Source: Gemmataceae bacterium
GTDB taxonomy: Bacteria > Planctomycetota > Planctomycetia > Gemmatales > Gemmataceae
Direction of reading: 5' to 3'
Length of the DNA: 34,914 bases
NCBI GenBank assembly: GCA_019747685.1
Contig: JAIEQN010000776.1
Span: 1 to 34,914, forward strand
Shown here: one piece after another, positions 2,426 through 34,914 of the stretch
Layout: each line of letters opens with the position of its first letter
How positions within the stretch are numbered: position 1 is the stretch's first letter
The notes under the pieces: generated by a model
Database searches by the model: none
The model's input: only the letters and a program-made list of their open reading frames with translations
Told to the model about the DNA's origin: nothing
Program-made: the position numbers and the translations under genes

Positions 2426-2426
2426 A

Positions 2427-4892: not shown

Positions 4893-4923
4893 CGCGGCGG
4901 TCCTGGCGAACGGGAGGAGTTCG

Positions 4924-12521: not shown

Positions 12522-12564
12522 CGGCGCGTCCTCAGCGGAGGGCGGTCTGTGTCGGATGGTTTTT

Positions 12565-12629: not shown

Positions 12630-12771
12630 GGGTCGGTCAGTGCCCGGTGTCGTCGACCGGCTCGGCGTCGCCGCCCTTGCGGGCGTCCTTCGGCTCGCCC
12701 TTGCCCGGCGGCTTGCCCTTGCCCGGCTTTTTCCCCGGCTTGCGGCCCAACTGGCCGCTGTTACAACCTTC

Positions 12772-13371
12772 TCAGACCGACGGCAGGGGCAGCCCCTGTA
12801 GCTCCGCCAGGTCGAGCCGGGCCAGCCGGACGGCCGCCTCCAGGTCTTCCTTGTGCTTGGCCGCGGCGGCCGCGTCGCCCCGCTTCTCGGCGTCCTCGGC
12901 GAGCAGCTTGTAGTTCTGCCGGGCGGCCTCGATCTCCGGCTCCCAGTCCTCCCGGGCGGCCCCTTCGAGCCGCAACAGCCAGGTGACGTAGAACTGGGCG
13001 TTGGCCCGGGCCGACCGGACATCCTCGGACAGCTTCGGATCGGCGGCCGGGTCGTCGGCCAACTCGTCGGCCAGGGCCGTCAGGTCGTTGTAAGCCGCCC
13101 CGAGTTGCTTCGAGAGCAACTGGGCCTTGGCCTTCTCCAGCCGGAGCTTGCGGGCCTCGGCCGTCCGCCCGGCCGGGAGGGCGGCCAGGGCCGCGTTGTA
13201 CTCGTCCACCGCAGTCAGGTGATCGTTGTCGGCGGCCGCGGCTTCGGCCGCCTGGACGTGCTTGGCCACCACGTCCAGGGCCTGCTGCTCCTGGCCCGGC
13301 CCGAGGTGGTACGCCAGCCCGGCCAGCGGCAACAGCAGCCAGCCGACGAGGAGCAGGATGCGGAGTACCAT
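12772..13371 (-). CDS. Membrane-anchored coiled/TPR-like small protein
   Basis: 199 aa: hydrophobic N-terminus MVLRILLLVGWLLLPLAGLAYHLG then Ala-rich helical repeats; SD GGAGGTCGC just upstream of the ATG; in operon order with vWA genes. Confidence 0.75.
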   Translation of the reverse strand: MVLRILLLVGWLLLPLAGLAYHLGPGQEQQALDVVAKHVQAAEAAAADNDHLTAVDEYNAALAALPAGRTAEARKLRLEKAKAQLLSKQLGAAYNDLTALADELADDPAADPKLSEDVRSARANAQFYVTWLLRLEGAAREDWEPEIEAARQNYKLLAEDAEKRGDAAAAAKHKEDLEAAVRLARLDLAELQGLPLPSV

Positions 13372-13418: not shown

Positions 13419-14477
13419 TCAAACGCTGTGGGGAACATTATTCGGCCCGCCCCGGCTCGCCCGCGGCCGCCGGCCGGGGCTCCAACCGGTGCCGACCAGC
13501 CCGAGGACGGCCGGCAAGACGGCCAGCACCCCGCACCCGGCCCCGACGCCCAGCAGGGCGTACTCCCGGGCCGCCCACCGGTCGGCGTCCTTCGGCCGGG
13601 TCCGCTCGTCGATCCGTGACACCAGCTCGGTGGTCAGGTGCTTGTCGTTGCCGTCGTGGTAGACGCCGTTGAGCCGGTTGGCGACCTGCCGGAGGGTGGA
13701 CACGTCCTGGCGGGTGGTGTGCCCGCCGAGCGACTTCCCGGCGGTCGGGTTGCCGACCCCGACGATCACCACGTTCGCCCCGATCGACGCCGGCATCTTC
13801 GGCATCCCGGTGGCCGGGACGGTGTCCCCGTCGGTGACCATCACCAGCACCGCCGACCCCGGGGGCCACGGCTTGGCGACCCGGGCGGCCTCCTCCAGCC
13901 CGGCGAACAGGTCCGTGTCGCCCGGCTTGAAGGCGTGCCGCAGGGGCAGGTCGGACAGGATGTTCCGGACCACCTCCCGGTCGACGGTGTCGACCACCAC
14001 CGGCTTGGCCTCCTTGGCGAACGCGACCACCGTGGTCTTGTACCGCTCGGCCTCGACCCGCTCGAAGAACGACTGGATCAGGTCGGCCGCCCGCTCCCGC
14101 CGGGGCTGCTTCCCCTCCCGCCCGGCGTCCTCCACCGTCATGCTCCGGGACACGTCCAGGACCAGGACGAGGTGGCGGTACTCGCCGGGCAGGACCTCGT
14201 TCAGCTTGTGGGCCTTCGGCGGGAGCAGGGCCAGCACGGTCAGCCCCCAGGCGGCGGCCCCGGCGGCGAGGGTGCGGAGGGCCGGGGCGACGGCCGCCAG
14301 AGCCAGCCACCGGCGGGACGGGCCGAACGCCAGCGGGGCCGCCCGGAGCACCCGCCGGTAGTGCAGCACCTCGGCGGCCGCGGCCAACAGCAGGACCACC
14401 CCGGCGGCCACGAACCCGGCCCCGACGGCGGACAGCCCGACGGGGTCGTAGGCCGGGAGTTTCGGAACCGGGATCAC
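13419..14477 (-). CDS. von Willebrand factor A domain membrane protein (BatA/BatB-like)
   Basis: GTG start 14477 (or 14480) overlapping the upstream stop; TM helices, MIDAS motif VLDVSRSMTVED, VMVTDGDTVPATG, C-terminal TM. The longer 13419..15506 ORF start is antisense-frame read-through of the upstream vWA gene. Confidence 0.85.
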   Translation of the reverse strand: MIPVPKLPAYDPVGLSAVGAGFVAAGVVLLLAAAAEVLHYRRVLRAAPLAFGPSRRWLALAAVAPALRTLAAGAAAWGLTVLALLPPKAHKLNEVLPGEYRHLVLVLDVSRSMTVEDAGREGKQPRRERAADLIQSFFERVEAERYKTTVVAFAKEAKPVVVDTVDREVVRNILSDLPLRHAFKPGDTDLFAGLEEAARVAKPWPPGSAVLVMVTDGDTVPATGMPKMPASIGANVVIVGVGNPTAGKSLGGHTTRQDVSTLRQVANRLNGVYHDGNDKHLTTELVSRIDERTRPKDADRWAAREYALLGVGAGCGVLAVLPAVLGLVGTGWSPGRRPRASRGGPNNVPHSV

Positions 14478-15424
14478 CACGGGGTGTACCTCAACCCGTA
14501 CAGGGCCAGTGTGCCGGCCAAGAGCAGCACCGCCCCGGCCAGGGCGAACGGCTCGTAGTAGTCCACCGTCTCGGCGATGGTCGGGGTGATCTTGGCCTGC
14601 TTCAGGGCGTCGATCTTCCGGAACACCGCCGGCAGGGCGGCCGGGTCGTCGGCCCGGAACGCCTCCCCGCCGGTCTGCCGGCAGATGGTGTAAATCTCGT
14701 CCTGCGGCTCCTCCCCGCCGACGATGATGGCGAACACGGTGATCCCGCCGGCGGTCAGCTTCTGGATGTAGTCGGCCTCGTTCCCCGGCAGGTCGAAGCT
14801 CTCCCCGTCGGAGACCAGGACGATCATCCGGTCCCCCTCCAGGGCCCGCCGGGCCAGCTCCTCCTTGCACCCGGTCAGGGCCTTGCCGATCAGCGTGCCC
14901 CAGAACGCCCGGGGGAGGTGGTCCGGCCGCATCAGCGGCGGGGCGCATTTGATCGCCGACGGGTCGGTGGTCAGCGGGGTCCAGTGGACGAAGTTGCCGC
15001 CGAAGAAGGTCAGCCCGAAGGCGTCCCCCTTGCGGTGGTCGAGGAACCGCTCGATCGCCTTCATCGAGGCGTCGTACCGGGTCCCGTCCCCGAACGCCTC
15101 GGTCATGCTGGGGGAGACGTCGACGGCGAACTGGATGTTGGTGACCGACCGCTTGTCCTGGGGCGGGCCGTTCCGCTTGGGGCCGGCCAGGACGCACACG
15201 GCGACGGCCAACAGCAGCGGCGCGATCGACTCGGCCAGCGACAGCGTCACCCACCACCACCAGCCCCCGCCGGCCCGGGCCCGGTCGAGCGGCAGGACCA
15301 CCCGGCGGGACGGCAGGAGCCACCGCCCGGCCCACACCCCGGCCAAGAGCAGCCCGGGCAGGAGCAGCCCGAACAGCACCAGCGTGTGGGTGAACGCCGG
15401 CCAGACCAGGGGGATGTCCTTCAT
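14474..15424 (-). CDS. von Willebrand factor A domain membrane protein (BatA-like)
   Basis: 316 aa from ATG 15424: N-terminal TMs, MIDAS FAVDVSPSMTEAFGDG, MIVLVSDGESFDLPG, C-terminal TM. ATGA overlap with the upstream gene stop. Confidence 0.9.
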   Translation of the reverse strand: MKDIPLVWPAFTHTLVLFGLLLPGLLLAGVWAGRWLLPSRRVVLPLDRARAGGGWWWWVTLSLAESIAPLLLAVAVCVLAGPKRNGPPQDKRSVTNIQFAVDVSPSMTEAFGDGTRYDASMKAIERFLDHRKGDAFGLTFFGGNFVHWTPLTTDPSAIKCAPPLMRPDHLPRAFWGTLIGKALTGCKEELARRALEGDRMIVLVSDGESFDLPGNEADYIQKLTAGGITVFAIIVGGEEPQDEIYTICRQTGGEAFRADDPAALPAVFRKIDALKQAKITPTIAETVDYYEPFALAGAVLLLAGTLALYGLRYTPW

Positions 15425-16281
15425 GCGCCGCCCCCCCGCTCGCCCCCGACCCGCTCCAGCGCGTCCGGCGGCAGGTCCCGGTACGGGGCCAAGAGCGCCC
15501 CGACATCGACCGGCCGGCCCGGCCCGGGCCGGTGCAGCCACTCTTCGAGCCGGTTCAACAGCGGCCCGGCGTCCGGGTGCCGGCGGAGGGCGGCCATCGC
15601 CTCGGCCGGCGGGTCCGCCTCCAGCTTCAGCCGCTTCCGCCAGTACGCCAGCAGCGACCGTTCCAGGTCGGCCAGCTGGCCGGGCGACAACCTCCCGCCC
15701 ACCGCCCCCTCGACCAGCGGCCGGAGCCGGTCGGCCAGGGTCAGCGGCCGGCCGGCGTCGGCGGCCACGGCCTTCGCCCGCCGGGGGAAGAAGAACGACA
15801 GGACGATGGCCGCCAGCCCAAGGCCCCAGAGGACGCCGAGGCCGATGACCAGGAGCCGGTAGCCGCCCAGCCGTGGGCCGGGGTCGACCCTCAGGTCGTT
15901 CGGCAGCACCGGCCCGGGCGACCGGACCGGGTTCACCCGCACCGGGAGCGGCGGCAGGTCGGCGGCCGACGACCCGTCCTTCCGCCGCAGGGAGTCCCGC
16001 AGGTCGTGGGTGCCGGGTTCGAGGCCGAAGTACTCGAGGTCGTACCGGAAGGCCGTCCCGTGCGGGTAGACGGCGGCGACCCGGACCACCACCGCGGCCT
16101 TCCGGTCGGTCAGCGGCCTGGCCTCCAGCTCGGCCCCGGGCAGCACCAGACTGGTGAACCGGCCGGTCATCCCGACGGCCGTTTCGGGCTGGGCGTGGGC
16201 GGCCGGGGGGCAAAGGGAAAAGCTGACAAGTAGGGCTAAAGCCCCGGCGCAGGTCCCGGCGGTCCGTGTCAGCCGGCCCAT
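15421..16281 (-). CDS. Secreted/membrane protein of the MoxR-vWA cluster (BatD-like position)
   Basis: 286 aa: signal MGRLTRTAGTCAGALALLVSFSLCPPAAHA, beta-rich ectodomain, TM YRLLVIGLGVLWGLGLAAIVLSFFF, cytoplasmic helical tail. Confidence 0.75.
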   Translation of the reverse strand: MGRLTRTAGTCAGALALLVSFSLCPPAAHAQPETAVGMTGRFTSLVLPGAELEARPLTDRKAAVVVRVAAVYPHGTAFRYDLEYFGLEPGTHDLRDSLRRKDGSSAADLPPLPVRVNPVRSPGPVLPNDLRVDPGPRLGGYRLLVIGLGVLWGLGLAAIVLSFFFPRRAKAVAADAGRPLTLADRLRPLVEGAVGGRLSPGQLADLERSLLAYWRKRLKLEADPPAEAMAALRRHPDAGPLLNRLEEWLHRPGPGRPVDVGALLAPYRDLPPDALERVGGERGGGA

Positions 16282-16320
16282 CAGCCCTCCCCCCGACGGC
16301 CCGCCCGGATTCTCATTGGT

Positions 16321-16362
16321 TTGGTTCGGCTACCCACACACCCTGCGGCCGAACCAATTATA
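16321..16362 (-). promoter_or_regulatory. 10-bp inverted repeat (TTGGTTCGGC/GCCGAACCAA) abutting a TATAAT hexamer on the minus strand
   Basis: Arms 16321-16330 and 16348-16357; TATAAT on the minus strand at 16362-16357. No good -35 seen. Confidence 0.3.
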
Positions 16363-16383
16363 CCCGTCAAACCGATCATCGAA

Positions 16384-17244
16384 CTAGCGACGCCCCCGGC
16401 CGAGTAAGTTCCGGCCCCGGAGGAAGTTGCGTAAGTCGGCGGCGAACGGCCGGTCGGTCCGGACCAGCAGGTGATCGACCCCGGCCCTCTTCAACTCGCG
16501 GGCCGTCGTCTCGGGATCGACCCACCGGCGGGCCGCCCGGGTGACGAACACCCGGCCCGTCTCGGCCTCCCCGGCTCGCAGGAACCCGGCACCCGGCAGC
16601 CCGATCTCGGCCGGGTCCTGCAACTGGATTACCGCGACATCGTGCCGCTGGGCCAGCAGCTTCAACGCCGGCACCGCCGCCCCGTCATGCAGGTCGCTCA
16701 GCACGAACACCAGGCACCGGCTCGGCAGGGACGGGGCCAGCTCCGTCACCCGCCGGCCGAGGGTCGTCGGCTCGTCGTACCGGAACCGGCGGAGGTCGTG
16801 CAGCCACTGCAACACCCGCGGCCGGGACAGGCTCGGGTCGACCCGGTAGTCCCGCCCGCCGACCCCGACCAGCCCGACCGGGCTGACCCGGTCGAGGCAG
16901 GCGAAGGCCAGCCCGCCGGCGATGTGGACGGCGGCCGCGTACTTACTCCGCTTGACCGACGATACCGTCATCGACGCCGACGTGTCGAGGAGCAGGTAGG
17001 CCGGGATTTGCCGGGGGGCCTCGTACTCCTTGACGAACACCTTCCCGGCCCGGGCCGTCACCCGCCAGTCGATCGACCGGACCGGGTCGCCGGGTAGGTA
17101 CTGCCGGGACTGGGCGTACTCGATCCCGGACCCGAGGAACGGGGACTTGTCGGTCCCGTAGTTCAGCGCGTCGGCCAGCTTCCGCACGGCGATGTGGAAC
17201 TGCCGGGCGTTCAGATGGTCGGCGGTGTCGAGGTAGCCTTCCAT
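16384..17244 (-). CDS. DUF58 domain protein (vWA-like, MoxR-associated)
   Basis: 286 aa from ATG 17244: MEGYLDTADHLNARQFHIAVRKLADALNYGTDKSPFLGSGIEYAQSRQYLPGDPVRSIDWRVTARAGKVFVKEYE...LLLDTSASMTVSS; typical DUF58 signatures. Confidence 0.93.
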   Translation of the reverse strand: MEGYLDTADHLNARQFHIAVRKLADALNYGTDKSPFLGSGIEYAQSRQYLPGDPVRSIDWRVTARAGKVFVKEYEAPRQIPAYLLLDTSASMTVSSVKRSKYAAAVHIAGGLAFACLDRVSPVGLVGVGGRDYRVDPSLSRPRVLQWLHDLRRFRYDEPTTLGRRVTELAPSLPSRCLVFVLSDLHDGAAVPALKLLAQRHDVAVIQLQDPAEIGLPGAGFLRAGEAETGRVFVTRAARRWVDPETTARELKRAGVDHLLVRTDRPFAADLRNFLRGRNLLGRGRR

Positions 17245-17266
17245 CCGGGCAGCCTTCAAGACCGGC

Positions 17267-17363
17267 CCGCTGATGACGCGGACTTCGACGCAGATCAAAC
17301 CGGATTGAAACCAATTGTTCCGATCCGATTTCATCTGCGGGCTTTGATCTGCGTCATCAGCGG
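17267..17363. repeat. 21-bp inverted repeat filling the moxR-DUF58 gap; left arm carries a 12-bp insertion
   Basis: Left CCGCTGATGACGC[GGACTTCGACGC]AGATCAAA (17267-17299); right TTTGATCTGCGTCATCAGCGG (17343-17363). The moxR stop codon (17357-17359) lies in the right arm. Confidence 0.93.
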
Positions 17364-18400
17364 ACCAATTCTTCCTTCCTCCGCTTCCCCCGGGTCAGGT
17401 CGTGGAGGATGTCCTGGAGGACGTCGTCGCCCCGCTTGCCGTCGGCCAGGGCCTCGTAGTTCAGCCGGACCCGGTGCAGGATCACGTCCGGGGCCAAGGC
17501 GTACAGGTCGTCGGGTACGACGTACCCGCGGCCGCGGATCAGCGCCCGGGCCTTGGCCGCCTTGATGAGGGCGATCCCGGCCCGCGGGCTGGCCCCTAGC
17601 TCCACGTCGGGGTGGCTGCGGGTCCGGGTGACGGCGTCGATGACGTGTTCCACGAACGTGTCGCTGACGTACACGTCGGCCGCCGCCTCCATCGCGGCGA
17701 CGAGGTCGTCGATGGTGCCGACCGGCTCGTCGGCCAGCACGTCGAACTCGGTCCGGGCGACCGCCCCGCCGCCCTCCCGCTTCACCCCCAGGGCCATGTT
17801 CCGCCGGAGGATTTCCTTCTCCTCATCGACCGTCGGGTAGACGAGCCGGTGGCGGAGCATGAACCGGTCGAGCTGGGCCTCCGGCAGCTCGAACGTCCCG
17901 GCCTGCTCGACCGGGTTCTGGGTGGCGATCACTAAAAACGGCGAGGGCAGCTTGAACGCCTCCTTGCCAATCGTCACCTTCCGCTCCTGCATGGCTTCGA
18001 GCAGGGCCGACTGCACCTTCGGGGCGGCCCGGTTGATCTCGTCGGCCAACAGCAGGTTCGTAAAGACCGGCCCCTTGTTCACCCGGAAGTCGTGCGTCTT
18101 CTGGTCGAGGATTTCCGACCCGAGGATGTCCGACGGCAGGAGGTCGATGGTGAACTGGATGCGGGCGAACTGGAGGTGGATCGACTTGGCCAGGCAGGAG
18201 ACGAGCAGCGTCTTGGCCAGCCCGGGGACGCCTTCGAGCAGCAGGTGGCCGCTGGTCAGCAGGGCGATCAGGATGCGCTCGACCACGACATCCTGGCCGA
18301 CGACGACGGTGCCGATCCGCTGGCGGACGCCGTTCAGGAAGGTGACGGTCGGGGTCGGGGCGGCGTGGCCGTTGGCCCCGTCGTCGGCGGGCAGGGTCAT
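17357..18400 (-). CDS. moxR: MoxR-family AAA+ ATPase
   Basis: 347 aa: GHLLLEGVPGLAKTLLVSCLA (Walker A), FARIQFTIDLLPSDILGSEI, LLADEINRAAPKVQSALLEAMQE (Walker B), FLVIATQNPVEQAGTFELPEAQLDRFM. Confidence 0.97.
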   Translation of the reverse strand: MTLPADDGANGHAAPTPTVTFLNGVRQRIGTVVVGQDVVVERILIALLTSGHLLLEGVPGLAKTLLVSCLAKSIHLQFARIQFTIDLLPSDILGSEILDQKTHDFRVNKGPVFTNLLLADEINRAAPKVQSALLEAMQERKVTIGKEAFKLPSPFLVIATQNPVEQAGTFELPEAQLDRFMLRHRLVYPTVDEEKEILRRNMALGVKREGGGAVARTEFDVLADEPVGTIDDLVAAMEAAADVYVSDTFVEHVIDAVTRTRSHPDVELGASPRAGIALIKAAKARALIRGRGYVVPDDLYALAPDVILHRVRLNYEALADGKRGDDVLQDILHDLTRGKRRKEELVR

Positions 18401-22069: not shown

Positions 22070-25000
22070 ATGTTTAAGCTCGCCCGGCGGAACCGGTGGA
22101 CCGGGTGGGCGGCCCGCAAGCCGTCCCTGCTCCGCCCCTTCCCCGTGCTCGGGCTGGAGCAACTGGAGGTCCGGGACACCCCGGCCACCTTCACCTGGAC
22201 CGGGGCCGGGGCCAACCAGCTCTGGTCGACCCCGGCCAACTGGCAGGGCGGGGTCGCCCCGACCGGCAACCCGCTGAACGTCGAGGACCTGGTGTTCCCG
22301 GCCGGCCCGACCCAGCGGGTGGCGGTCAACAACATCTCCGGCGGCATCTTCAACTCGATCACCTACGGGGCCGGCGGGTACACCCTGTCCGGGTCCCCGC
22401 TGACCCTCGGCGGGATCTCCGGGGTCAGCCAGAGCGGCAACCTGGTGGTCACCGCCGGGGCCGTCGACAACGCCCTGGCGATGAACGTCACCCTGGGGGC
22501 GGCGGCCGGCAACTTCCAGACCTTCTCGATCCTCGACTCGGCCGCCCTGACCGTCTCCGGCCGGCTGGCCGGGGTGGCCAACTCGACCCTGACCAAGGAC
22601 GGGGCCGGGACCCTCACCCTGACCAACGACAACAGCGGGTTCGCCGGGTTCTTCCGGCTGAACAACAACGCCGGCCAGCTCGTCATCACCAACCCGAACG
22701 CCCTGGGCACCACCTCGGCCCGGACGATCGTCGGGGCCGGGTCGTCGGTCCGGGTGCTGGTCGACGCGGCCGGGGCGATCACCGTCCGCGAGCCGATCAC
22801 CCTGAACGGCCTCGGGTTCGCCAACGACGGGGCCCTGTCCACCCTGTCCGGGACGACCAACTGGGACGCCCCGGTGGTGCTCGACAGCGACGCCGCCCTC
22901 GGGGCGTCGGCCGGGTCGGTGCTGAACGTGACCGGGGTGGTGAGCGACTCCGGGGCCGGGTTCGCCCTGTACAAGGAGGGGGCCGGGGAGGTCCGGCTGG
23001 CCAGCCCGACCGGGAACACCTACCGCCGCCAGACGATCGTCGACGACGGGGTGCTGACCGCCACCCACCCGCTGTCCCTCGGGGCCGGCGGCACCACCCT
23101 GAGCGGGACGATCGTCAACTACACCCTGACCCAGGCCGGGCAGCTCCGGCTGGCCGACCTGGCCCCGACCGGGGCCGACGGGAACCCCACCGGGTTCACC
23201 GTCCGGGACGAGTTCCTGACCATCAACGGCCCGGGCCGGGACTTCCTGGAGAACGACGGGGCCTTGGCCAACACCGTCGGGAACAACTACTGGGCCGGCC
23301 CGGTCACCCTCGGCAGCCCGGCCCCGAACGTGGCCGTGGCCGCCGCCGTCGGGGCGGCCGCCGGGACCACCCTGACCGTCAGCGGGGTGGTGTCGTCCCC
23401 GAACGGCCCGTACGCCCTGACCAAGGTGGACGCCGGGCGGGTCGTCCTGGACAACGCCAACACCTACACCGGGACCACCCTGGTCGCCCAGGGGGCCCTG
23501 ACCGCCCGGGACTCGACCGCCCTGGGGACGGTCGGCGGGTCGACCGGGGCCGAGGTCCAGGCCGCCCAGGTGATCGGCTCGCCCGGGACGTTCCAGATTT
23601 TCTTCAGCGGGGCCGGCACCATCCCCCTGCCGTTCAACGCCACCGCTCCGCAGGTCGAGGCCGCGGTTAACGCCCTGTCGACCGTCGTGTCGGCCGGCGG
23701 GAAGGTGTCGGTGACGGCCACCCGGATCGCCGGCGGGACCCAGTACAACATCATCTTCGGCGGGGCGTTCGTCGGGCTCAACCTGCCCCAGATCCAGGCC
23801 CTCGGGGCCGGGAACGTGGCCGCCGACACCATCACCGTCCGGGACGGCGGCGGGTCGGCCACCGCGGTCGTCGAGGGCGGGTCGCTGGAGCTGGAGGTGG
23901 AGGCCGGCGACCTGACCATCCCCCAGCGGGACGCCCACGGCCGGGACCTCGGGAACGACTCCGTCACCGGCGACCCGAACCGGCTCCGGGTGGCCGAGCC
24001 GATCACCATCTTCGGCCGCGGGCTGGACACGACCGACAACGGCCGGACCGGCGGGACCGGGGCCCTGCGGAGCGTCAGCGGGATCAACGTCACCACCGCC
24101 CCGATCGAGCTCGGGTACGCGAAGAACGTGGCCGACGCGATCGGGGTCGACCAGGACCGGCGGGCCGGCCACCCGACCCCGGACGCCACCTACTTCACCG
24201 CCGACTACAGCCTGACCACCCAGGGCGTGATCCTCGGCAACCTCGACCCCGAGCTGGACCGGGCGACCGAGTTCGTCAAGCGGGGCGAGGGCCACCTGAT
24301 CCTGCCGATCGCCAACACCTACCTCGGGACCACCCGGATCGAGCAGGGGTGGGCGACGGCCCGGAACGCGGCCTCCCTGGGCGGCCGGTTCGAGACGGTC
24401 GTCCGCCCGGCCCCGGCGGCCAACGTCAACCCGATCGGCCAGGGGGACACCGCCCAGCCGCCGACGGTGGTGAGCGCCGGGGCCGCCCTCCACCTCCGCC
24501 CGCTCACCCCGGGCACGAACCTCACCTTCCCCGAGAACCTGACCATCGCCGGGGTCGGCCCGACCCACCCGTACAGCTTCATCGACCGCCGCGGGGCGCT
24601 GATGAACCTGGACGGGAACAACACCTGGGCCGGGGACGTCGGGCTGGTCGGCCAGGCCGGGATCGGGGTCGAGCAGGTGATCGGCGGGTCCCGCAGCGAC
24701 CTAGTTGTCACCGGCACCCTCCGGGGCGGCCAGAACTCGTTCAACCTGTCCTCCAACGGCGGCCAGGCCGAGCAGGCGTTCCTGATCGACACCGGGGCCC
24801 CGGCCGGGGTCGTCCGGGTGACCTACAACTTCTTCACCCTCCGCGACCGGCTGACGGCCTACTACCCGCCCCGGGGCGAAGCCGGCAGCACCCGCATCCT
24901 CGACACCGGGTACATCAACAACGCCCCCGACCTGACGCCCCGGACCCTCGAGTTCCCGTTCGGCCCCGGGACCAGCAACCGGGTCGAGCTGGTCGTCAAC

Positions 25001-28000
25001 GAGGGCGGCAACCCGGACCCGTTCACCGTCTGGGAGCTGTCGGCCGAGGCCGAGGTGGATGGCGGGCTGATCAAGTTCGGGTCGAAGCGACTCTCCCTCC
25101 AGGGGGAGGGGACCTACGGCGGGGTCACGGAGGTCCGGGAGGGGACCCTGCGGTCCCAGAACGACACCGCCCTGGGGCGGAAGTTCAGCGGCACCGCCCG
25201 CACCCAGGGGACGTACACCCAGACGGCCACCGTCGTTTCCCCGGCCGCCGTGCTCGAGCTGGCCGGGAGCATCGACCGGCTCAACGGCGGGGTCGCCGCC
25301 GGCACCCAGGTGTTCTACGAGCAGCTCGTCCTGGACCGGCCCGGGCAGCAGGTGGCCGTCGCCGGCTCGACCGTCCCCGGGTTCACCGGGACGTTCACCC
25401 TGAGCTACCGCGGGCAGGTCACCCCGCCGCTGTCGATCACCGCCACCGCGGCCGACGTGGCCGCCGCCCTGAACGCCCTGTCCACCGTCCGGGCCGACTT
25501 CGCCTCCGACGGCGGGGCGACCGTCACCCGGACCGGGAACGTCTACACCGTGGTGTTCGGGAACACCCGGTCGGTCAGCGCCCCGCTGCTGGTGGCGACG
25601 GCCTCCGGCGGGGCCGAGGTGGCGGTCAGCGGCGGCCCGGCCGGGCTGGTCGTGTCGTCCGAGGACCACACCTGGCGGGGGGCCGTCACCCTCCGGGACG
25701 GCGCCCGGGTGGACGTCCGGACCCGGGCCCGGGTGTCGCTGCACGGGCCGATCGACGACGCCGTCAACCCGTCCCCGGCCGGGTCCGACCTGGCCAAGCG
25801 GGGGGCCGGCGAGCTGCTCCTGGCCGGGCCGAACACCTTCCGCGGGACGACCGCGATCGACGAGGGGGTGGTCACCGCCGCCAACTCGACCGCGTTCGGG
25901 GCGACGGCCGGCGGGACGGTGGTGGCCGACGGGGCCCAACTCCAGCTCCAGGGGAACCTGACCGTCGCCGGGGAGGCCCTGACCCTCCGCGGGACCGGGC
26001 CGGCGGCGGTGTCGGCGTTCGAGGACACCGTCCGGTGGGTGAACACCGGCCCCGGGCCGACCAACAACGGGCTGTCCGGGAACACCCTGCCGACCAGCGG
26101 GCGGGTGACCAGCGCGGTCGCCGACCCGTCCGACCCGAGCACCGTGTACGTGGCCACCGCCGGCGGCGGGGCCTGGAAGACGACCGACGGCGGGGTCACC
26201 TGGAACCCGCTGTTCGACCTCGACCCGGACGGGAACGGGCTGATCTACGGCGGGTCGTTCGCCGTCGCCCAGTCCGACCCCCGGGTGGTGTACTTCGCCA
26301 CCGGGGACACCAACGGGTACCCGACCGGGTCCGGGGTCCAGGGGCCGGCGGTCAACTACGCCGGCACCGGGGTGTACAAGTCGACCGACGCCGGCCGGAC
26401 CTGGACGGTCCTGACCACCACCGGCGGGGCCAACCCGCTCCGCGGGCAGGCGGTCAGCAAGATCATCGTCGACCCGGAGGTGGCCGACCGCATCTACGTG
26501 GCCAGCGGGACGAGCAATGTCCTGAACGCCGACCCGGCGGCCGTCCCCGGCGTCTGGCGGTACGACGGGGCCGACTGGTTCAACCTGACCGGGGGGCCGT
26601 CCCCGAACCGGCTGAGCGTCCCCGGGACGGGCGACTTCGCGGCCCCGCCGGCCGGGGTCGGGGCCCCGGAGAACGCCGGCCCGGACGACGACTACCGGAT
26701 CATGTTCCCGCAGACGAACGCCACCTGGAGCGACATCCAGCTGATCAAGCGGGGGTTCAGCCCGTTCACCGGGGCGAGCGAGTGGGTCCTGTACGCCGCC
26801 CTCGGGGAGTCGTTCCAGAAGTACTACCAGGGGCCGACCAGCCAGGGCATCTTCAACGCCGTCTACCGGACCGAGGACCCGGACTCGACCGGGGCCAACC
26901 CGACCTGGTGGCTGGGCACCGGGACGGTCTTCGTCCGGTCCCACACCACCGGCCCGGACATCCCCCAGCCGCTCCCCCCGCTCCCCCCGCCGACCCCGCC
27001 GGACCAGCGGGCCAACCCGTTCCCGGTCGGCCCGATCACCCCGCCGATCCCGTACATCCCGCCCGGCCGCAACGGCTGGATCAAGCTGGCCGGGACCCAG
27101 GACAACTACCTCCAGCCGACCGCCCGGTGGCCGCTCACCAAGAACCCGAACGAGGGGATCACCAACGACTTCATCTACGGGGTCATCAACCCCCACATCA
27201 CCGTGTACGCCTCTGTGGTGTGGCCGGACTACCAGGACCTGCGGGGCGAGCTGCGGGACATCCAGAAGACCGGGTGGGACGGCGGGATCGCCACCACCTG
27301 GCAGGCGACCGGGGCGGTCCCGGTCCGGCCGTTCGGCACCGCCACCTTCGACCCGCAGATCCCGGCCCCGCCGAACTCCCCGTACTACCGGAACATCGTC
27401 AAGGGGACCGGCCGGTACAACAACGCCCTGCTGGTCCAGTCGTCCACCCCGCTGATGGCCGCGGACAACGAGCCGGACGTGGTCTACCTGGCCGGCCGGG
27501 ACGACATCTTCGTCAGCACCAACGGCGGGCAGGCCTGGTCGGTCCTCCCGCCCGACCCGACCGGCAACAAGCCGGGCAACCAGTACCAGAGCCTGACCCG
27601 GGACTTCGCCGGCCGGCTGGTGATCGGGACCGACGGCGGGGTGTGGCGGTACGACCCGACCGTCGCCCCCGCCGACCGCCGGTACGTCAACCTGAACGGC
27701 GACCTGGCGGTCACCCAGCTGAACTCGGCCGACCCGCACCCGACCGACCTGAACCAGGCCCTGGCCGGGGCGACGGATAGCGGCACCCAGCGGTTCGACG
27801 GCGGGCTGGCCTGGGCCCGGCTGGACGACACCGCCGGGAGCAACACCGGGGTCGTCCGGTACGACCCGCGGAACCCGCTGGTGGCCTACGCCGCCCGGGA
27901 CGGCCAGCTCCGCAAGACGACCGACGGGGGGGCCACCTGGTTCACCCTCCGGAACGTCTCGACCGTCCCCCCGGACCTGAAGTTCGCCGACCTGTTCGAC

Positions 28001-31000
28001 CCGTTCAACCGGTCCTACGGGACGGCCCGGGTGTCCCCGGTCGGCCCCGGCGGGAACACCGGCCGGGTCGACCAGTACCAGCGGAACGAGGGGTCGAACT
28101 TCTTCCCCCTGGTGGTCGACCCGATCAACACCAGCCGGGTGCTGATCGGCAACCCGAACCCGGTGGTCGTCGGCGACCCGCTCGGCGGGGCCCCGGACGA
28201 CATCATCGCCAACAACCTGCTCGAGTCGTCCAACGGCGGGCTGACGTTCACCAACCTGAACGCCGGCATCACCGTCACCGCCATCGGGACGGCCACCTTC
28301 CAGGGCCGGTTCGCCCTCGACCCGGAGCCGAACGCGCTCGGGGCCTCCCCGCCCGGGTTCCCGAACGTCACCGACAAGGGGTCGAACACCTACGACCCGG
28401 ACACCATCTACGTCGCCGGGTACTTCCAGCAGGGGCTGACCCAGGCCAACCGCCGGGAGGAGCTGCGGGTCACCAAGGACCACGGCACCTCGTGGATCGT
28501 CCGGACCCCGCCGGGGGCCACCCCGACCGACCCGGCCCCGATCACCGACATCACCGTCGACCCGGCCAACCGGGACACGGTGTACGTCACCCGGAGCCGG
28601 CGGGTCGGGCAGCCCGGCGGCCGGGTCTACCGGTCGACCGACGCCGGCCGGAACTGGACCGACATCACCGGGAACGACGCGGACATGCAGGCCCCGGCCT
28701 ACGCCACCGCCGTCGACCCCCGGGACGGGACCCTGTACCTGGGCAACGAGCACGGCGTCTGGTCGCTGCGGAACGCGGCCGACACGACCTCGTACATCTG
28801 GGTCAAGTTCGGGGCCGGGATGCCCCGGGTGGCGGTCAAGGACCTGGTCCTGAACCAGACCCTGAACACCCTCACGGCCGCGACCAACGGCCGGGGCATG
28901 TTCCAGCTCCTGCTGACCGACTACCAGCCCAGCTCGGGCGCCCTGCGGGCCCTCAGCGGGGCGTCGGTGTGGACCGGGAACGTCACCCTGACCGGGGACA
29001 CCACGATCGGGGCGGCCGGCACCCAGCAGCTCCAGAACGGGATCGCCTCGGCCTCGGTCAACCTGATCGGCCGGGTGGCCGACGACACCCCCGGGGCCAA
29101 CCACGAGCTGCGGAAGATCGGGCTGGGCACCCTGATCCTGTCCGGGGCGAACACCTACGGCGGGCAGACCCTGGTGCAGGAGGGCGTCCTCCAGGTGAAC
29201 AACCCGCGGGCCCTCGGGGCGTTCGAGCCGGCCGCCACCGCCAACACGGTGGTGTCCGACGGGGCCGCCCTGGAGCTGCGGAGCGACCTGGAGGCCGAGC
29301 CGGTCACCGTCAACGGCCGCGGGTTCCCGTTCAACCAGCGGTTCACCGGGGCCCTGCGGAACGTCAGCAGCAACAACACCTACACCGGGACCCTGACCCT
29401 GGCGACGGACAGCACCATCGGGGTCGACTCCGGGACCAGCCTGACCATCGGCCGCAAGGCCGACCTGGTCGGGATCGGGACGATCACCGACGGGGCGGAG
29501 AACTTCGCCCTGGACAAGGAGGGGCCCGGGACCCTGATTCTGGCCGAGGCCAACACCTACGACGGCCTCACCCGGGTGGCCGCCGGGGCCCTCCAGGTGC
29601 AGGACGCCCTGGCCCTCGGCAGCACCGGGCTGGCCGGCGGCCCGGCCGACACCCGGGTGCTCGACGGGGCCCAGCTCCAGATCGCCCGGAACGCCTTCAC
29701 CGGCGACCCGACGGTGGTGGTCGACGAGCACCTGTTCCTGTCCGGCAGCGGGATCGACAAGACCGGGGCCCTGCTCAACGTCCACCCGGACGCCGACCCG
29801 GCCGGGGCGACGAACGTCTGGCGGGGGCCGGTCACCTTCAACCTCGACCCGAGCACCGCCCCGCCGACCGTCCCGTCCTCCCAGGTGTCGATCGGGGTGT
29901 CCGACCCGGCCGACACCCTGGTCATCGACGGGCCGATCGACCAGGTGAACAGCCAGGCGTCGTTCGGGCTGATCAAGGTCGGCCCCGGGCGGCTGACCCT
30001 GGCCCAGGCCAACGTCTACACCGGGGTGACCAACGTCGAGGCCGGGACCCTGACCGTCCGCGGCCCGGACGCCCTCGGGCCGGCGGTCTCGTCCGAGGTC
30101 CAGACGGTGGCGGTGGTCGGGAGCGTCGACCCGGCGACCGGGCTGCCGTACCAGTTCACCCTGTCGTTCAACGGGGACGCCACCGGGCTGCTCGACGCCT
30201 CGACCATCACCGCCGCGGTGGTCCGGAGCAAGCTCGGGGCCCTGCCATCGGTCGGCGGGACGGGCAACCTCATCGTGGCCGAGAGCCCGACCTCGAACGG
30301 GAAGACGTTCACCGTCACCTTCCGGAACGCCCTGGGCAACCAGGACCTGCCGACGATCGTGGCCGGGAGCATCTCCCCGGGGCTGTCGGTCAACGTGACC
30401 GAGGCCCAGCGGGGCGGGCTCGGGACCGTGGTGTCGGCCGGGGCCACCCTGGAGATCGAGGGCGACACCGGCGGCGGGTTCACCGTCAGCGAGGTGCTGG
30501 CCCTGAACGGGGACGGGGTGGGGGCCGGCGGGGCGCTGCGGAACGCCTCCGGGGCCAACACCTACGCCGGGCCGATCACCCTGGAGACGGACGCCAGCAT
30601 CGGGGCGGCCGCCGACAGCACCCTGTCGGTCACCGGGACGATCCGGGACCCGAACCCGGCCCCGGTCCCGGCCGCCCGGCTGCGGAAGGCCGGGGAGGGC
30701 GTGGTCGAGCTGCGGACGGCCAACCCGTACGCCGGGCTGACGGTGGTGGACGAGGGCGTGCTGCGGGTGTTCAACCCGAGCAGCCTGGGCAACAGCGGGC
30801 CGGAGGTCCAGCTCGTCCAGGTGACCGGGTCGGCCGGGACGTTCACCCTGATCTTCGACGGCCAGCCCACCACCCCGCTGTTGGTCACCGCGACCGCGGC
30901 GGACGTGGCGGCGGCCCTGAACGCCCTGCCGAACATCGGCGGGGTCGGCGGGTCGGTGGCCGTCACCCGGACCGGGTCCGCCGGCAACTTCTTCTACGAG

Positions 31001-34000
31001 GTCACCTTCGGCGGGACCCTGGCCGGGGCCGACCAGCCGCAACTGACGGCCACCGCCACCGGGGCGGCCAACGCCTTCATCAGCACCACCCGGGAGGGCC
31101 CGGGGGCGACCGTGGTGAACACCGGGGCCACCCTCCAGGTGGCCGGCGGGATCACCATGAACCGGGAGGCCGTGACCATCAACGGCCCCGGGTTCAACGG
31201 CCAGGGGGCCCTGAACAGCTTCCTCGGCAACCTCAACGTCTGGGCCGTCCCGCTCACCCTGGGCAGCGACGCCTCGATCGGGACCACCACCGTCGTCCAG
31301 GTGTTCTCGTTCACCGCCCCGATTACCGACAACGGGCTCGGGTTCGGGCTGGACATCGTCGGCCCGGGGACCGTCTCCTACGACGGCACCGCCGACAACA
31401 CCTACTCCGGGACCACCACCGTCCGGGCCGGCACCCTGCGGCTAAACCAGGCCGCCGGGATCGCCGTCAACGGCGACCTGGTGGTCGGCGACGGGGCCGC
31501 CCCGGCGGTCGTCCGGGCCACCCGGGACGACCAGATCGCCGACACCTCCGACGTGGCGGTCAACGCCACCGGGACCTACGACCTGAACGGCCGGGCCGAC
31601 ACCATCGCCGACCTGTCCGTCACCGGCGGGTCGGTGCTGACCGGGGCCGGCGGCAGCCTGACCGCCGCCGACGTGACGATGGCGGGCGGGACCATCACCG
31701 CCGGGGCCAACGCCACCCTGACCGTCCGGGACGTGGACATGACCGGCGGGACGATCGCCGCCGGGGCGAACGCCGTCGTCACCACCCGGGACATCCGGAC
31801 CGCCGGCGGGGCGATCACCCTGGCCGCCGGGTCCGAGCTGAACCTGACCGGGGACATCACCGGGACCTCGACGGCGGCCGGGTCGGCGTCGATCACCGGC
31901 CCGGGCACCCTCGACCTGAACGGGGCGGTCCGGACGGTGATCGTGACCGACGGCCCGCAGCCGGAGGACCTGCGGATCACCGCCGTCCCGACGGCGGCCG
32001 CCGGCGAGGGGCTGGTCAAGGACGGGGCCGGCCGGCTGGTCCTGGCCCCGACCGCCCCGACCGCGGTGCCGGTCCGGGTGGTGGACGGCGACCTCCAGGC
32101 CGACGGGGATGTCGGCCCGAAGACCCTGGACGGCCCGAACGCCAGCCTGAGCGGGGTCGGGTCGGTCGACTCGGTCGGCGGGGCGTCCGGCCCGGCCGTC
32201 GGGACGGTCAGCCCGGGGAACAACTGGCGGCTCAACCCGGCCGGCGTCCTGCGGGTCACCGGGGACGTGGTCTGGGGGGCGGCGACGACGTACTTCGTGG
32301 ACCTGGACGCCTCGTCCCACCCGACCCCGCCGGCCGGGGCGGACTACGACCAGCTCCGGGCGACGGGCACCGTCACCCTCGGCGGGGCGACCCTGTCCGG
32401 GTCGTTCGGCCCCGGGGTGCTGCTGGGCGACCGGTTCACCATCATCACCGCCGGGTCGGTGGTCGGCCGGTTCGCCGAGCCGTTCGGCCCGAACGTGGTG
32501 TTCATCGGGGGCCAGAAGTTCCGGGTGGTGTACACCGCCACCACGGTCGAGCTGGAGAAGGTCAAGGCGGACGTGGCGGTCACGGTGGCGGCGTCCCGGA
32601 ACCCGTCCACCCTGCGGGAGCCGGTGACGTTCACCGCCACCGTGACCCCGGAGCCGGGGGCCGGGCCGGTCCCGACCGACGACACGGTGACGTTCACCGT
32701 GGACGGGGTGAGCTACGGGCCGTTCATGCTGGACGCGAGCGGCCGGGCGACCTTCACCACCACCGCCGTCCCGGGCGGGTTCCTGGCCGGCGGGACCCAC
32801 ACCGTCTCGGCCGCGTTCAGCGGGGACGCCCTGAACTTCAACGCCGGGACCTCCCCGGTCCTGACCCAGGTGGTCGAGGTGCCGGCGATCGCCCCGCTGG
32901 TCGGGTCGCCGGCCCTGATCTCGCCGAACAACAGCCCGGGCGTCCAGGACGCCTTCACCGCCGCCACCACCGTCACCCAGGAGCGGGCCCTGACCGACTG
33001 GACGGTGGTGGTCAAGAACTCGGCCGGCGATGTCGTCCGGACGTTCAGCGAGCGGGTCCCCCGCAAGCCGTCGCCGGGGGCGGACAACTCGTTCGCCATC
33101 GCCGTCACCTGGGACGGCCGGGACCAGACCGGGGCGTTCGTCCCGGACGGGGACTACACCCTGACCGCGTCGTTCCAGGACGAGTTCGGGAACACGGCGG
33201 CGGCCGCCCCGATCACCGTCCGGGTGGACAGCACCTCCCCGGACTCGACCCCGGTGACCAGCCCGGTCCCGGTGATCGCCCCGCTGCCGGTCGGGCTGCC
33301 GGCCGGGACGGCCAGCATGGTCCCGACCACCACCCGGCTGACCGGGACGGTCGGGGACGAGAACCTGGACCACTGGACGGTCCGGGTGCTGGACGCCGGC
33401 GGGGCCGAGGTCCGGCGGTTCGAGGGGGCGGCCGGGGCGACGGCCGTGGACATCACCTGGGACGGGCGGGACTCGGCCGGCAACGTCGTCCCGGACGGGG
33501 TCTACTCGCTGGTCATCGAGGTGCTCGACCGGGCCGGGAACGTCACCCGCCCGGCGGCCGCCACGGTGGTCGTGCTCGACCGCCCGCCGTCGATCGGGGT
33601 CAGCTCGAACGGCCCGACCACCTACGGCCAGAGCATCACCCTGACGGCGGCCGTCACCCCGCTCGTCCCGGGGCTGGCCGGGCTGCTGGAGGGGGACGAG
33701 GTCCGGTTCTTCCAGGGCACCACCCTGCTGGGGACCGGGACGCTCGTCCTGGTGGGCGGCGAGTACCGGGCGTCGGTCACCGTGCCGACGTTCAACGCCG
33801 GGACGTACTCGGACATCACCGCCGCGTACCCCGGGTCGGAGTTCTTCCTGCCCGGCACGTCGGCCCCGTTCACCCACGTGGTCGTCCCGGCCGTGCTGAG
33901 CGTCCAGGCCGACGACGCGACCAAGGTGTACGGCCAGCCGGTCCCGCCGCTGACCTTCCGGGTGAGCGGGCTGGTCAACGGGGACACCGAGGCCGAGGTC

Positions 34001-34914
34001 GTGTCCGGCCTGCCCGGGACGGCGGCGACCGCCGCCAGCCCGGTCGGGGCGTACCCGATCACCCAGGGGACGCTGACCGCCAACCCGAACTACACGGTCA
34101 CGTTCACCCCGGGCACCCTGACCGTCACCCCGGCCCCGCTGACGGTCCGGGTGAACGACGCGACCAAGGTGTTCAACCGGCCGAACCCGCCGTTCACCGC
34201 CGCCTTCGAGGGACTGCTGCTGGGCGACACCCCGGCGGTGGTCCAGAACCTGAACCTGGTGTCGACGGCCACCCAGTCGAGCAAGGTCGGGACCTACCCG
34301 ATCACCGCCCGGGGGACGCCGACGGCCCTGAACTACACCATCACGGTGATCCCGGGGACCCTGACCGTCACCCCGATCCCGTCGGAGATCGACGTCGGGA
34401 CCGGGCCGGGGGCGACCGCGACCGTCACCCGGTACGACCCGGACGGCCGGCCGTTCGGCACCCTGACCCCGTTCGGGTCGTTCGCCGGCGGGGTGCGGAC
34501 GGCGACCGCCGACCTGAACGGGGACGGGATCGAGGACGTGGTGATGGGGACCGGGCCGGGGACCCAGGCCCGGGTGCTGGTGATCGACGGGAACACCGAC
34601 GAGGTGCTGTACTCGGCCTTCCCGTTCGGGGACTTCACCGGCGGGGTGTTCGTGGCCACCGGGGACCTGACCGGGGACGGCCGGGCCGACCTGGTGGTCA
34701 CCCCGGACGAGGGCGGCGGGCCGCGGGTGCAGATCATCCGGGGCGGGGACTTCGCCCCGGTGGTCAGCTTCTTCGGCATCCAGGACCCGAACTTCCGGGG
34801 CGGGGTGCGGGCGGCCGTCGGCGACATCAACGCCGACGGGTTCGCCGACCTGGCGGTGGCGGCCGGGTTCGGGGGCGGCCCGCGGGTCGCCCTGTGGGAC
34901 GGGAAGGCCCTGGC
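22070..34914 (+). CDS. Giant multidomain extracellular-type protein, C-terminus beyond the window (at least 4281 codons)
   Basis: ATG 22070 (MFKLARRNRWTGWAARKPSLLRPFPVLGLEQLEVRDTPATFTWTGAG...). Frame verified by hand at 24302, 26942, 30002, 33002 and 34862, with no stop noticed. About ten NTYxGxTxVxxGxLxVxxxxALG motifs (autotransporter-associated beta-strand repeat, TIGR02601-like). N-terminal LExLExRxxPA motif resembles planctomycete LEPR-XLL-type starts. Not in the ORF track because it lacks an in-window stop. Confidence 0.92.
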   Translation, partial: MFKLARRNRWTGWAARKPSLLRPFPVLGLEQLEVRDTPATFTWTGAGANQLWSTPANWQGGVAPTGNPLNVEDLVFPAGPTQRVAVNNISGGIFNSITYGAGGYTLSGSPLTLGGISGVSQSGNLVVTAGAVDNALAMNVTLGAAAGNFQTFSILDSAALTVSGRLAGVANSTLTKDGAGTLTLTNDNSGFAGFFRLNNNAGQLVITNPNALGTTSARTIVGAGSSVRVLVDAAGAITVREPITLNGLGFANDGALSTLSGTTNWDAPVVLDSDAALGASAGSVLNVTGVVSDSGAGFALYKEGAGEVRLASPTGNTYRRQTIVDDGVLTATHPLSLGAGGTTLSGTIVNYTLTQAGQLRLADLAPTGADGNPTGFTVRDEFLTINGPGRDFLENDGALANTVGNNYWAGPVTLGSPAPNVAVAAAVGAAAGTTLTVSGVVSSPNGPYALTKVDAGRVVLDNANTYTGTTLVAQGALTARDSTALGTVGGSTGAEVQAAQVIGSPGTFQIFFSGAGTIPLPFNATAPQVEAAVNALSTVVSAGGKVSVTATRIAGGTQYNIIFGGAFVGLNLPQIQALGAGNVAADTITVRDGGGSATAVVEGGSLELEVEAGDLTIPQRDAHGRDLGNDSVTGDPNRLRVAEPITIFGRGLDTTDNGRTGGTGALRSVSGINVTTAPIELGYAKNVADAIGVDQDRRAGHPTPDATYFTADYSLTTQGVILGNLDPELDRATEFVKRGEGHLILPIANTYLGTTRIEQGWATARNAASLGGRFETVVRPAPAANVNPIGQGDTAQPPTVVSAGAALHLRPLTPGTNLTFPENLTIAGVGPTHPYSFIDRRGALMNLDGNNTWAGDVGLVGQAGIGVEQVIGGSRSDLVVTGTLRGGQNSFNLSSNGGQAEQAFLIDTGAPAGVVRVTYNFFTLRDRLTAYYPPRGEAGSTRILDTGYINNAPDLTPRTLEFPFGPGTSNRVELVVNEGGNPDPFTVWELSAEAEVDGGLIKFGSKRLSLQGEGTYGGVTEVREGTLRSQNDTALGRKFSGTARTQGTYTQTATVVSPAAVLELAGSIDRLNGGVAAGTQVFYEQLVLDRPGQQVAVAGSTVPGFTGTFTLSYRGQVTPPLSITATAADVAAALNALSTVRADFASDGGATVTRTGNVYTVVFGNTRSVSAPLLVATASGGAEVAVSGGPAGLVVSSEDHTWRGAVTLRDGARVDVRTRARVSLHGPIDDAVNPSPAGSDLAKRGAGELLLAGPNTFRGTTAIDEGVVTAANSTAFGATAGGTVVADGAQLQLQGNLTVAGEALTLRGTGPAAVSAFEDTVRWVNTGPGPTNNGLSGNTLPTSGRVTSAVADPSDPSTVYVATAGGGAWKTTDGGVTWNPLFDLDPDGNGLIYGGSFAVAQSDPRVVYFATGDTNGYPTGSGVQGPAVNYAGTGVYKSTDAGRTWTVLTTTGGANPLRGQAVSKIIVDPEVADRIYVASGTSNVLNADPAAVPGVWRYDGADWFNLTGGPSPNRLSVPGTGDFAAPPAGVGAPENAGPDDDYRIMFPQTNATWSDIQLIKRGFSPFTGASEWVLYAALGESFQKYYQGPTSQGIFNAVYRTEDPDSTGANPTWWLGTGTVFVRSHTTGPDIPQPLPPLPPPTPPDQRANPFPVGPITPPIPYIPPGRNGWIKLAGTQDNYLQPTARWPLTKNPNEGITNDFIYGVINPHITVYASVVWPDYQDLRGELRDIQKTGWDGGIATTWQATGAVPVRPFGTATFDPQIPAPPNSPYYRNIVKGTGRYNNALLVQSSTPLMAADNEPDVVYLAGRDDIFVSTNGGQAWSVLPPDPTGNKPGNQYQSLTRDFAGRLVIGTDGGVWRYDPTVAPADRRYVNLNGDLAVTQLNSADPHPTDLNQALAGATDSGTQRFDGGLAWARLDDTAGSNTGVVRYDPRNPLVAYAARDGQLRKTTDGGATWFTLRNVSTVPPDLKFADLFDPFNRSYGTARVSPVGPGGNTGRVDQYQRNEGSNFFPLVVDPINTSRVLIGNPNPVVVGDPLGGAPDDIIANNLLESSNGGLTFTNLNAGITVTAIGTATFQGRFALDPEPNALGASPPGFPNVTDKGSNTYDPDTIYVAGYFQQGLTQANRREELRVTKDHGTSWIVRTPPGATPTDPAPITDITVDPANRDTVYVTRSRRVGQPGGRVYRSTDAGRNWTDITGNDADMQAPAYATAVDPRDGTLYLGNEHGVWSLRNAADTTSYIWVKFGAGMPRVAVKDLVLNQTLNTLTAATNGRGMFQLLLTDYQPSSGALRALSGASVWTGNVTLTGDTTIGAAGTQQLQNGIASASVNLIGRVADDTPGANHELRKIGLGTLILSGANTYGGQTLVQEGVLQVNNPRALGAFEPAATANTVVSDGAALELRSDLEAEPVTVNGRGFPFNQRFTGALRNVSSNNTYTGTLTLATDSTIGVDSGTSLTIGRKADLVGIGTITDGAENFALDKEGPGTLILAEANTYDGLTRVAAGALQVQDALALGSTGLAGGPADTRVLDGAQLQIARNAFTGDPTVVVDEHLFLSGSGIDKTGALLNVHPDADPAGATNVWRGPVTFNLDPSTAPPTVPSSQVSIGVSDPADTLVIDGPIDQVNSQASFGLIKVGPGRLTLAQANVYTGVTNVEAGTLTVRGPDALGPAVSSEVQTVAVVGSVDPATGLPYQFTLSFNGDATGLLDASTITAAVVRSKLGALPSVGGTGNLIVAESPTSNGKTFTVTFRNALGNQDLPTIVAGSISPGLSVNVTEAQRGGLGTVVSAGATLEIEGDTGGGFTVSEVLALNGDGVGAGGALRNASGANTYAGPITLETDASIGAAADSTLSVTGTIRDPNPAPVPAARLRKAGEGVVELRTANPYAGLTVVDEGVLRVFNPSSLGNSGPEVQLVQVTGSAGTFTLIFDGQPTTPLLVTATAADVAAALNALPNIGGVGGSVAVTRTGSAGNFFYEVTFGGTLAGADQPQLTATATGAANAFISTTREGPGATVVNTGATLQVAGGITMNREAVTINGPGFNGQGALNSFLGNLNVWAVPLTLGSDASIGTTTVVQVFSFTAPITDNGLGFGLDIVGPGTVSYDGTADNTYSGTTTVRAGTLRLNQAAGIAVNGDLVVGDGAAPAVVRATRDDQIADTSDVAVNATGTYDLNGRADTIADLSVTGGSVLTGAGGSLTAADVTMAGGTITAGANATLTVRDVDMTGGTIAAGANAVVTTRDIRTAGGAITLAAGSELNLTGDITGTSTAAGSASITGPGTLDLNGAVRTVIVTDGPQPEDLRITAVPTAAAGEGLVKDGAGRLVLAPTAPTAVPVRVVDGDLQADGDVGPKTLDGPNASLSGVGSVDSVGGASGPAVGTVSPGNNWRLNPAGVLRVTGDVVWGAATTYFVDLDASSHPTPPAGADYDQLRATGTVTLGGATLSGSFGPGVLLGDRFTIITAGSVVGRFAEPFGPNVVFIGGQKFRVVYTATTVELEKVKADVAVTVAASRNPSTLREPVTFTATVTPEPGAGPVPTDDTVTFTVDGVSYGPFMLDASGRATFTTTAVPGGFLAGGTHTVSAAFSGDALNFNAGTSPVLTQVVEVPAIAPLVGSPALISPNNSPGVQDAFTAATTVTQERALTDWTVVVKNSAGDVVRTFSERVPRKPSPGADNSFAIAVTWDGRDQTGAFVPDGDYTLTASFQDEFGNTAAAAPITVRVDSTSPDSTPVTSPVPVIAPLPVGLPAGTASMVPTTTRLTGTVGDENLDHWTVRVLDAGGAEVRRFEGAAGATAVDITWDGRDSAGNVVPDGVYSLVIEVLDRAGNVTRPAAATVVVLDRPPSIGVSSNGPTTYGQSITLTAAVTPLVPGLAGLLEGDEVRFFQGTTLLGTGTLVLVGGEYRASVTVPTFNAGTYSDITAAYPGSEFFLPGTSAPFTHVVVPAVLSVQADDATKVYGQPVPPLTFRVSGLVNGDTEAEVVSGLPGTAATAASPVGAYPITQGTLTANPNYTVTFTPGTLTVTPAPLTVRVNDATKVFNRPNPPFTAAFEGLLLGDTPAVVQNLNLVSTATQSSKVGTYPITARGTPTALNYTITVIPGTLTVTPIPSEIDVGTGPGATATVTRYDPDGRPFGTLTPFGSFAGGVRTATADLNGDGIEDVVMGTGPGTQARVLVIDGNTDEVLYSAFPFGDFTGGVFVATGDLTGDGRADLVVTPDEGGGPRVQIIRGGDFAPVVSFFGIQDPNFRGGVRAAVGDINADGFADLAVAAGFGGGPRVALWDGKAL
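26018..28936 (+). other. Asp-box/BNR (sortilin/sialidase-like) beta-propeller domain within the giant CDS
   Basis: Asp-box motifs TTDGGVTWNPL, STDAGRTWT, STNGGQAWSVL, TTDGGATWFTL, SSNGGLTFTNL, TKDHGTSWIV, STDAGRNWTDI, with interleaved VDPxxxxxVYVA motifs. Confidence 0.85.
31610..31849 (+). repeat. Four ungapped 20-residue (60-nt) tandem repeats within the giant CDS
   Basis: DLSVTGGSVLTGAGGSLTAA / DVTMAGGTITAGANATLTVR / DVDMTGGTIAAGANAVVTTR / DIRTAGGAITLAAGSELNLT. Confidence 0.85.
32563..33890 (+). other. Ig-like and FlgD-like Ig domains within the giant CDS
   Basis: Ig-like ...STLREPVTFTATVTPEPGAG...GTHTVSAAFSGDALNFNAGTSP; two FlgD-like segments WDGRDQTGAFVPDGDYTLTASFQDEFGN and WDGRDSAGNVVPDGVYSLVIEVLDRAGN; second Ig-like SSNGPTTYGQSITLTAAVTP. 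Confidence 0.75.
33895..34375 (+). other. Two consecutive MBG-like domains within the giant CDS
   Basis: LSVQADDATKVYGQPVPPLTFRVSGLVNGDT...PVGAYPITQGTLTANPNYTVTFTPGTLTVTPA and LTVRVNDATKVFNRPNPPFTAAFEGLLLGDT...KVGTYPITARGTPTALNYTITVIPGTLTVTPI. Confidence 0.85.
34400..34914 (+). other. FG-GAP/VCBS-like calcium-binding repeats at the visible C-terminal end of the giant CDS
   Basis: FAGGVRTATADLNGDGIEDVVMGTGPG, FTGGVFVATGDLTGDGRADLVVTPDEGGGP, FRGGVRAAVGDINADGFADLAVAAGFGGGP: DxNxDGxxD loops. Confidence 0.85.

Follow-up and report, generated by a model that had tools for sequence, protein, structure and literature searches.

The question raised by this locus is what kind of protein is encoded by an open frame that runs off the end of a Gemmataceae contig, and whether that frame is a gene at all. 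Translation from the ATG at position 22070 of the plus strand to position 34914, the right-hand edge of the window (the whole stretch of 34,914 nucleotides that was analysed, which is contig C1188 of its assembly), gives 4,281 codons with no in-frame stop, as the initial annotation had claimed. In 200 first-order Markov sequences matched to this frame in composition and length, the longest open run had a mean of 586 codons and a maximum of 1,172. The G+C content at the three codon positions is 0.66, 0.55 and 0.995 over the giant frame and is nearly constant in each 1.5-kb slice. The long ORFs in alternative frames and on the antisense strand display the same position-wise values in the wrong order. 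This shift identifies the overlapping ORFs on both strands as shadows of the giant frame, and their dismissal as spurious when the region was first read was correct.

Rightward extension, suggested at that time as the way to find the stop, has been possible through the assembly itself. The final 77 bases of the window have one further exact copy in the genome, which lies at the end of contig C606; a de Bruijn assembler leaves a shared end of 77 bases where two contigs are neighbours. Joining C1188 to C606 places the stop at joined coordinate 35345, 144 codons past the window, and gives a protein of 4,425 amino acids with the C-terminus ...GFFGGVFVG-stop. A complete syntenic orthologue is present on a contig (L050) of a Gemmataceae MAG, where the frame begins MFKLARRNRWTGWTARKPSLLRPFPTLGLEQLEVRDTPATFTW and ends ...FLGGVFVG; the alignment of the two proteins spans residues 1-4425 at 71% identity. 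Downstream of the giant gene the two genomes carry the same gene in convergent orientation, which reads as a gene for a PQQ-like membrane protein. The matching start, end and downstream gene of the orthologue lend the join independent support. The giant gene for a 4,425-residue protein, with the window ending inside it, is confirmed as genuine.

The neighbours of the gene are a divergent cytochrome P450 gene and a series of unrelated genes on the minus strand, and for this reason the neighbourhood offers no clue to function. On the minus strand, positions 1-6015 hold a molybdopterin oxidoreductase-like frame (1-2022), a gene of nitrite reductase type (2427-4892) and one for a tetrapyrrole methylase (4924-6015), which together look like a nitrate/nitrite assimilation cluster. 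A 1,492-residue frame at 8544-13022 (minus strand) has a coding-like third-position G+C of 0.956, and Pfam gives no match for it at E 1e-4. At 13419-18400 (minus strand) a MoxR-type AAA ATPase, a DUF58 protein and frames that resemble vWA/BatA-type proteins stand in a row, a common bacterial cluster. No match was found in the plasmid collection.

The features of the giant gene, all on the plus strand of the window, are as follows.

22070..34914 (+): giant gene, 4,281 of 4,425 codons; the other 144 codons lie on G000:C606 (L017, minus strand)
22070..22186 (+): N-terminal leader, residues 1-39, Arg-rich, without a clear hydrophobic core, ending ...VRDTPA
22148..22183 (+): surface-protein motif LGLEQLEVRDTP, residues 27-38, exact LxLExLExRxxP match
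22187..26023 (+): PATR / autotransporter-type beta-strand repeats, stretch 1 (PF12951, TIGR02601), a predicted solenoid
23540..23851 (+): inserted module, copy 1, about 100 aa, residues 491-594, phage tail-like
25346..25657 (+): inserted module, copy 2, about 100 aa, residues 1093-1196
26024..28921 (+): sortilin/Vps10- and BNR-type beta-propeller region, about 960 aa, within one PATR unit; boundaries approximate
28922..32329 (+): PATR and degenerate repeats, stretch 2; right boundary approximate
30083..30427 (+): inserted module, copy 3, about 100 aa, residues 2672-2786
30797..31099 (+): inserted module, copy 4, about 100 aa, residues 2910-3010, relative of the Bxb1 tail-tip cage protein gp23
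32588..32875 (+): Ig-like domain Big_3_5, first, domain match
32891..33520 (+): two FlgD-type Ig-like domains, domain matches
33602..33883 (+): Ig-like domain Big_3_5, second, domain match
33896..34370 (+): two MBG_2 domains, domain matches; right boundary approximate
34388..34914 (+): FG-GAP propeller, first part, the rest on contig C606; left boundary approximate

Domain searches recovered the modules that had been read by eye from the translation, namely autotransporter-strand repeats, propeller, Ig, FlgD-like, MBG and FG-GAP; no catalytic domain was recognised in the protein. PF12951 matches in 10 stretches and TIGR02601 in 11. The sortilin/Vps10-BNR propeller scores 33.9 bits when the whole protein is searched (cut-off 33) and falls below the cut-off in separate tiles. 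When the flanks of the propeller were rejoined and aligned locally with an intact PATR unit they scored 101, and the halves alone scored 59 and 69. Since the rejoined flanks outscore either half, this large propeller sits inside a PATR unit, and relatives of the giant carry it at the same place and in the same order within their repeats. At the C-terminus, FG-GAP repeats are found above the cut-off with both PF13517 and PF01839, and the end may be read as six blades, five with calcium-type loops and one closed by the terminal GGVFVG strand. AlphaFold with two-sequence alignments gave a low-confidence model of the sortilin-type propeller region (mean pLDDT 26.8), and the solenoid fold was not obtained, both models being of low confidence outside the inserted modules.

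We consider it likely that this is a surface or matrix protein exported by a motif-tagged, planctomycete-specific route, with a solenoid stalk that displays modules, an FG-GAP cap and a probable role in adhesion or as part of a cell cover. The motif literature and the types of domain are the grounds on which export, surface location and adhesion are inferred. The Arg-rich N-terminus with its LxLExLExRxxP motif would act as an address tag for export from the cytoplasm. The PATR strand repeats would fold into a long beta-solenoid, from whose loops the sortilin/BNR-type propeller and the small phage-tail-like modules would be displayed; the Ig, FlgD-like and MBG domains would serve as spacers, and the FG-GAP propeller with its calcium-type loops would cap the C-terminus. 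Protein length may be tuned through gain and loss of repeated modules.

The case for the address tag begins with residues 27-38. The string LEQLEVRDTPA had been noted without a family; it agrees with an N-terminal motif already known from cell-surface proteins of planctomycetes (PMC8567305). Two forms are given there: RRLxxExLExRxLLA in R. baltica, and LxLExLExRxxP in Tuwongella immobilis, the latter worked out from the signal of R. baltica surface proteins (PF07595). In T. immobilis 52 genes carry the motif, 20 of their products were detected (8 of these in the SDS-soluble fraction only), and the motif is present on 8 of the 10 longest proteins, of 4,016-10,566 amino acids (PMC8567305). These proteomic data lend indirect support to a surface location of the motif-bearers. 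The Pfam model PF07595 itself (gathering cut-off 25.5 bits) gives no match to the N-terminus of the giant, reaches 17 bits in one other census protein, and passes the cut-off in no genome of the genus. As a genome-wide detector at E up to 10 this model was non-discriminating, matching 8 of 14 control genomes, and searching for the motif with a degenerate DNA pattern proved too strict and also gave hits in controls. A further giant frame in the same genome (5,934 aa; G000:C1175, L157) has a VEALEERVVP motif at its N-terminus and FG-GAP-like repeats, and is not among the PATR matches.

An alternative to a planctomycete-specific route is ordinary Sec export by an unusual, weakly hydrophobic signal peptide, with LExLExRxxP acting as a maturation or retention site. 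The leader of the giant is Arg-rich and contains a short, moderately hydrophobic segment, LLRPFPVLGL, and the motif ends in Pro-Ala, which would be a plausible neighbourhood for cleavage. No classical hydrophobic signal peptide had been obvious in the first reading, and by hydropathy the leader is without a clear hydrophobic core, its highest Kyte-Doolittle mean over 10 residues being 1.41. Against the Sec reading, 18 of 19 motif-bearing leaders (each measured between the closest upstream Met and the last residue of the motif, so that the true start may differ) have a maximum 12-residue hydropathy of no more than 0.6, that is, they are without a hydrophobic segment by this simple measure. A hydrophobic core is therefore not general among motif-bearers, and we regard Sec export as unlikely.

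The presence of the motif at one end of the protein was found to be associated with the FG-GAP propeller at the other. Near their start, 27 of 29 FG-GAP-ended proteins carry LExRxxP, compared with 2 of the 92 remaining frames of the stretches examined (Fisher p about 2e-22); these stretches were fetched around FG-GAP-ended genes of two genomes, and the paralogues are related and not independent. The census filter on codon-position G+C was relaxed, since its first version lost most proteins. Gemmataceae genomes at a greater distance also show the pairing of motif and propeller end, and there the ends vary more. In the reverse direction, when 13 frames were picked for carrying the motif, only 1 showed several FG-GAP motifs close to its end. 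Motif and cap are thus not an obligate pair, most motif-selected proteins lacking an FG-GAP end, and it follows from this failure in reverse that the motif is the general tag, with the propeller as one ending among several. It is doubtful that LExRxxPA and the propeller ending G-V-F/Y-V-G belong together as the opposite ends of a single planctomycete display system, in which the motif would direct non-Sec export, the cap would be recognised at the surface and the modules between would vary.

The abundance of PATR / autotransporter-type passenger repeats, together with weak equivalog matches to the autotransporters EprS and ShdA that lie far below the cut-off, might indicate a classical type V autotransporter, in which a beta-barrel at the C-terminus of the same chain carries the passenger over the outer membrane. 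The completed C-terminus, which the initial annotation had proposed to check for a sorting or barrel domain, is instead an FG-GAP propeller, and the orthologue ends likewise. Searches of every protein tile and of the last 169 amino acids recognised no barrel family and no sorting domain. Since the located stop leaves no barrel, the type V reading fails for this polypeptide and is very improbable.

The stalk proposed for a motif-tagged surface protein is interrupted by four copies of a module of about 100 amino acids, three of which are placed between the ALG or SLG turn of a repeat unit and the strand that comes next in that unit. Sequence comparison relates copies of the module to gp23, the tail-tip cage protein of mycobacteriophage Bxb1 (PDB 9d93), with E values of 1.6e-14 and 1.2e-6, and there are weak matches to profiles of phage major tail proteins. 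For one copy the AlphaFold model reaches a local pLDDT of up to about 85, and its best structural matches are phage virion proteins, a weaker line of support than the sequence matches. With a profile built from the four copies, 4 matches are obtained in the orthologue, 6 and 9 in relatives of 4,553 and 5,109 amino acids, 21 in a relative of 6,151 and 26 in one of 6,507, some of these counts including split matches. As the counts rise from 4 to 26 with frame length, module copy number accounts for much of the difference in length.

Within the genus, frames of 4,487, 4,553, 5,109, 6,151 and 6,507 amino acids have the N-terminus, propeller and C-terminus in common and in the same order. A further relative (G003:C258, L089) has a frame of 3,057 amino acids in the fetched stretch that ends in the insert-module region, and may represent a gene that has been shortened or a fault in the assembly. 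More widely, a propeller of this type is found in 16 of 95 Gemmataceae genomes (E <= 1e-20) and PATR repeats in 64 of the 95, often in frames of 4,000-6,500 amino acids. This wide distribution makes a giant gene of this kind ordinary for the Gemmataceae. Comparison with the L050 orthologue gives dN 0.20 and dS 0.25 (NG86), with dS compressed by the extreme third-position bias. The similarity of the two values makes constraint on single residues look weak, but the ratio is uninformative here, given that G or C fills nearly every third position. Next to no credence is due to the idea that the frame is decaying or untranslated and open merely through very high G+C, since for all the scarcity of stops in such DNA and the similar size of dN and dS, the frame far exceeds the open runs of composition-matched sequences, its third-position G+C stays at 0.995 over the full length, and five complete relatives conserve its start, its end and the order of its domains.

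Planctomycetes have many giant genes, and the term is already used in their literature for genes over 15 kb (PMC8303584); nothing direct was found in a search for literature on giant Gemmata autotransporters. What this locus offers is a complete syntenic orthologue pair, with relatives that lengthen with module copies, material that should be useful in testing the motif as an export signal and in tracing the growth of giant genes. The remaining interest lies in the putative N-terminal export tag and in growth by phage-tail-like modules.

The protein belongs to an already known class, the motif-tagged mosaic giants of the Gemmataceae, of which it is a well-preserved example; the propeller-split PATR repeat, the phage-tail-like inserts that track length and the association of motif and cap are details found here. 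The T. immobilis giants share with it an N-terminal LxLExLExRxxP, a length of 4,000-10,500 amino acids, membership of the Gemmataceae and a mosaic of extracellular-type domains (PMC8567305). The domains named for them, in the portion of that article consulted, are integrin-beta (Na/Ca exchanger type) and Ig-like, with no description of a PATR solenoid like that predicted here, enclosing a sortilin-type propeller and ending in FG-GAP. The Planc_extracel proteins of Rhodopirellula baltica (PF07595; Studholme et al. 2004, as cited in PMC8567305) likewise have a short N-terminal ExLExR and a predicted surface location, but their consensus ends in LLA and the motif of the giant, unmatched by the Pfam model, in xxPA. 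With the PATR / TIGR02601 autotransporter-repeat proteins the giant has ten or more detected repeats in common, and differs in having no C-terminal barrel and in the large domains inserted in its repeats. The C-terminal D-x-D-G blades resemble those of integrin-alpha-type propellers (the orthologue C-terminus matches integrin alpha-V with E of about 3e-6), although here a probable six blades are closed by a terminal GVFVG strand and there is no integrin context. Finally, the repeated module of about 100 amino acids is common, by sequence, to the inserts of the giant and to Bxb1 gp23, but in this family it is set, in 4 to 26 copies, within the repeats of a giant cellular protein.
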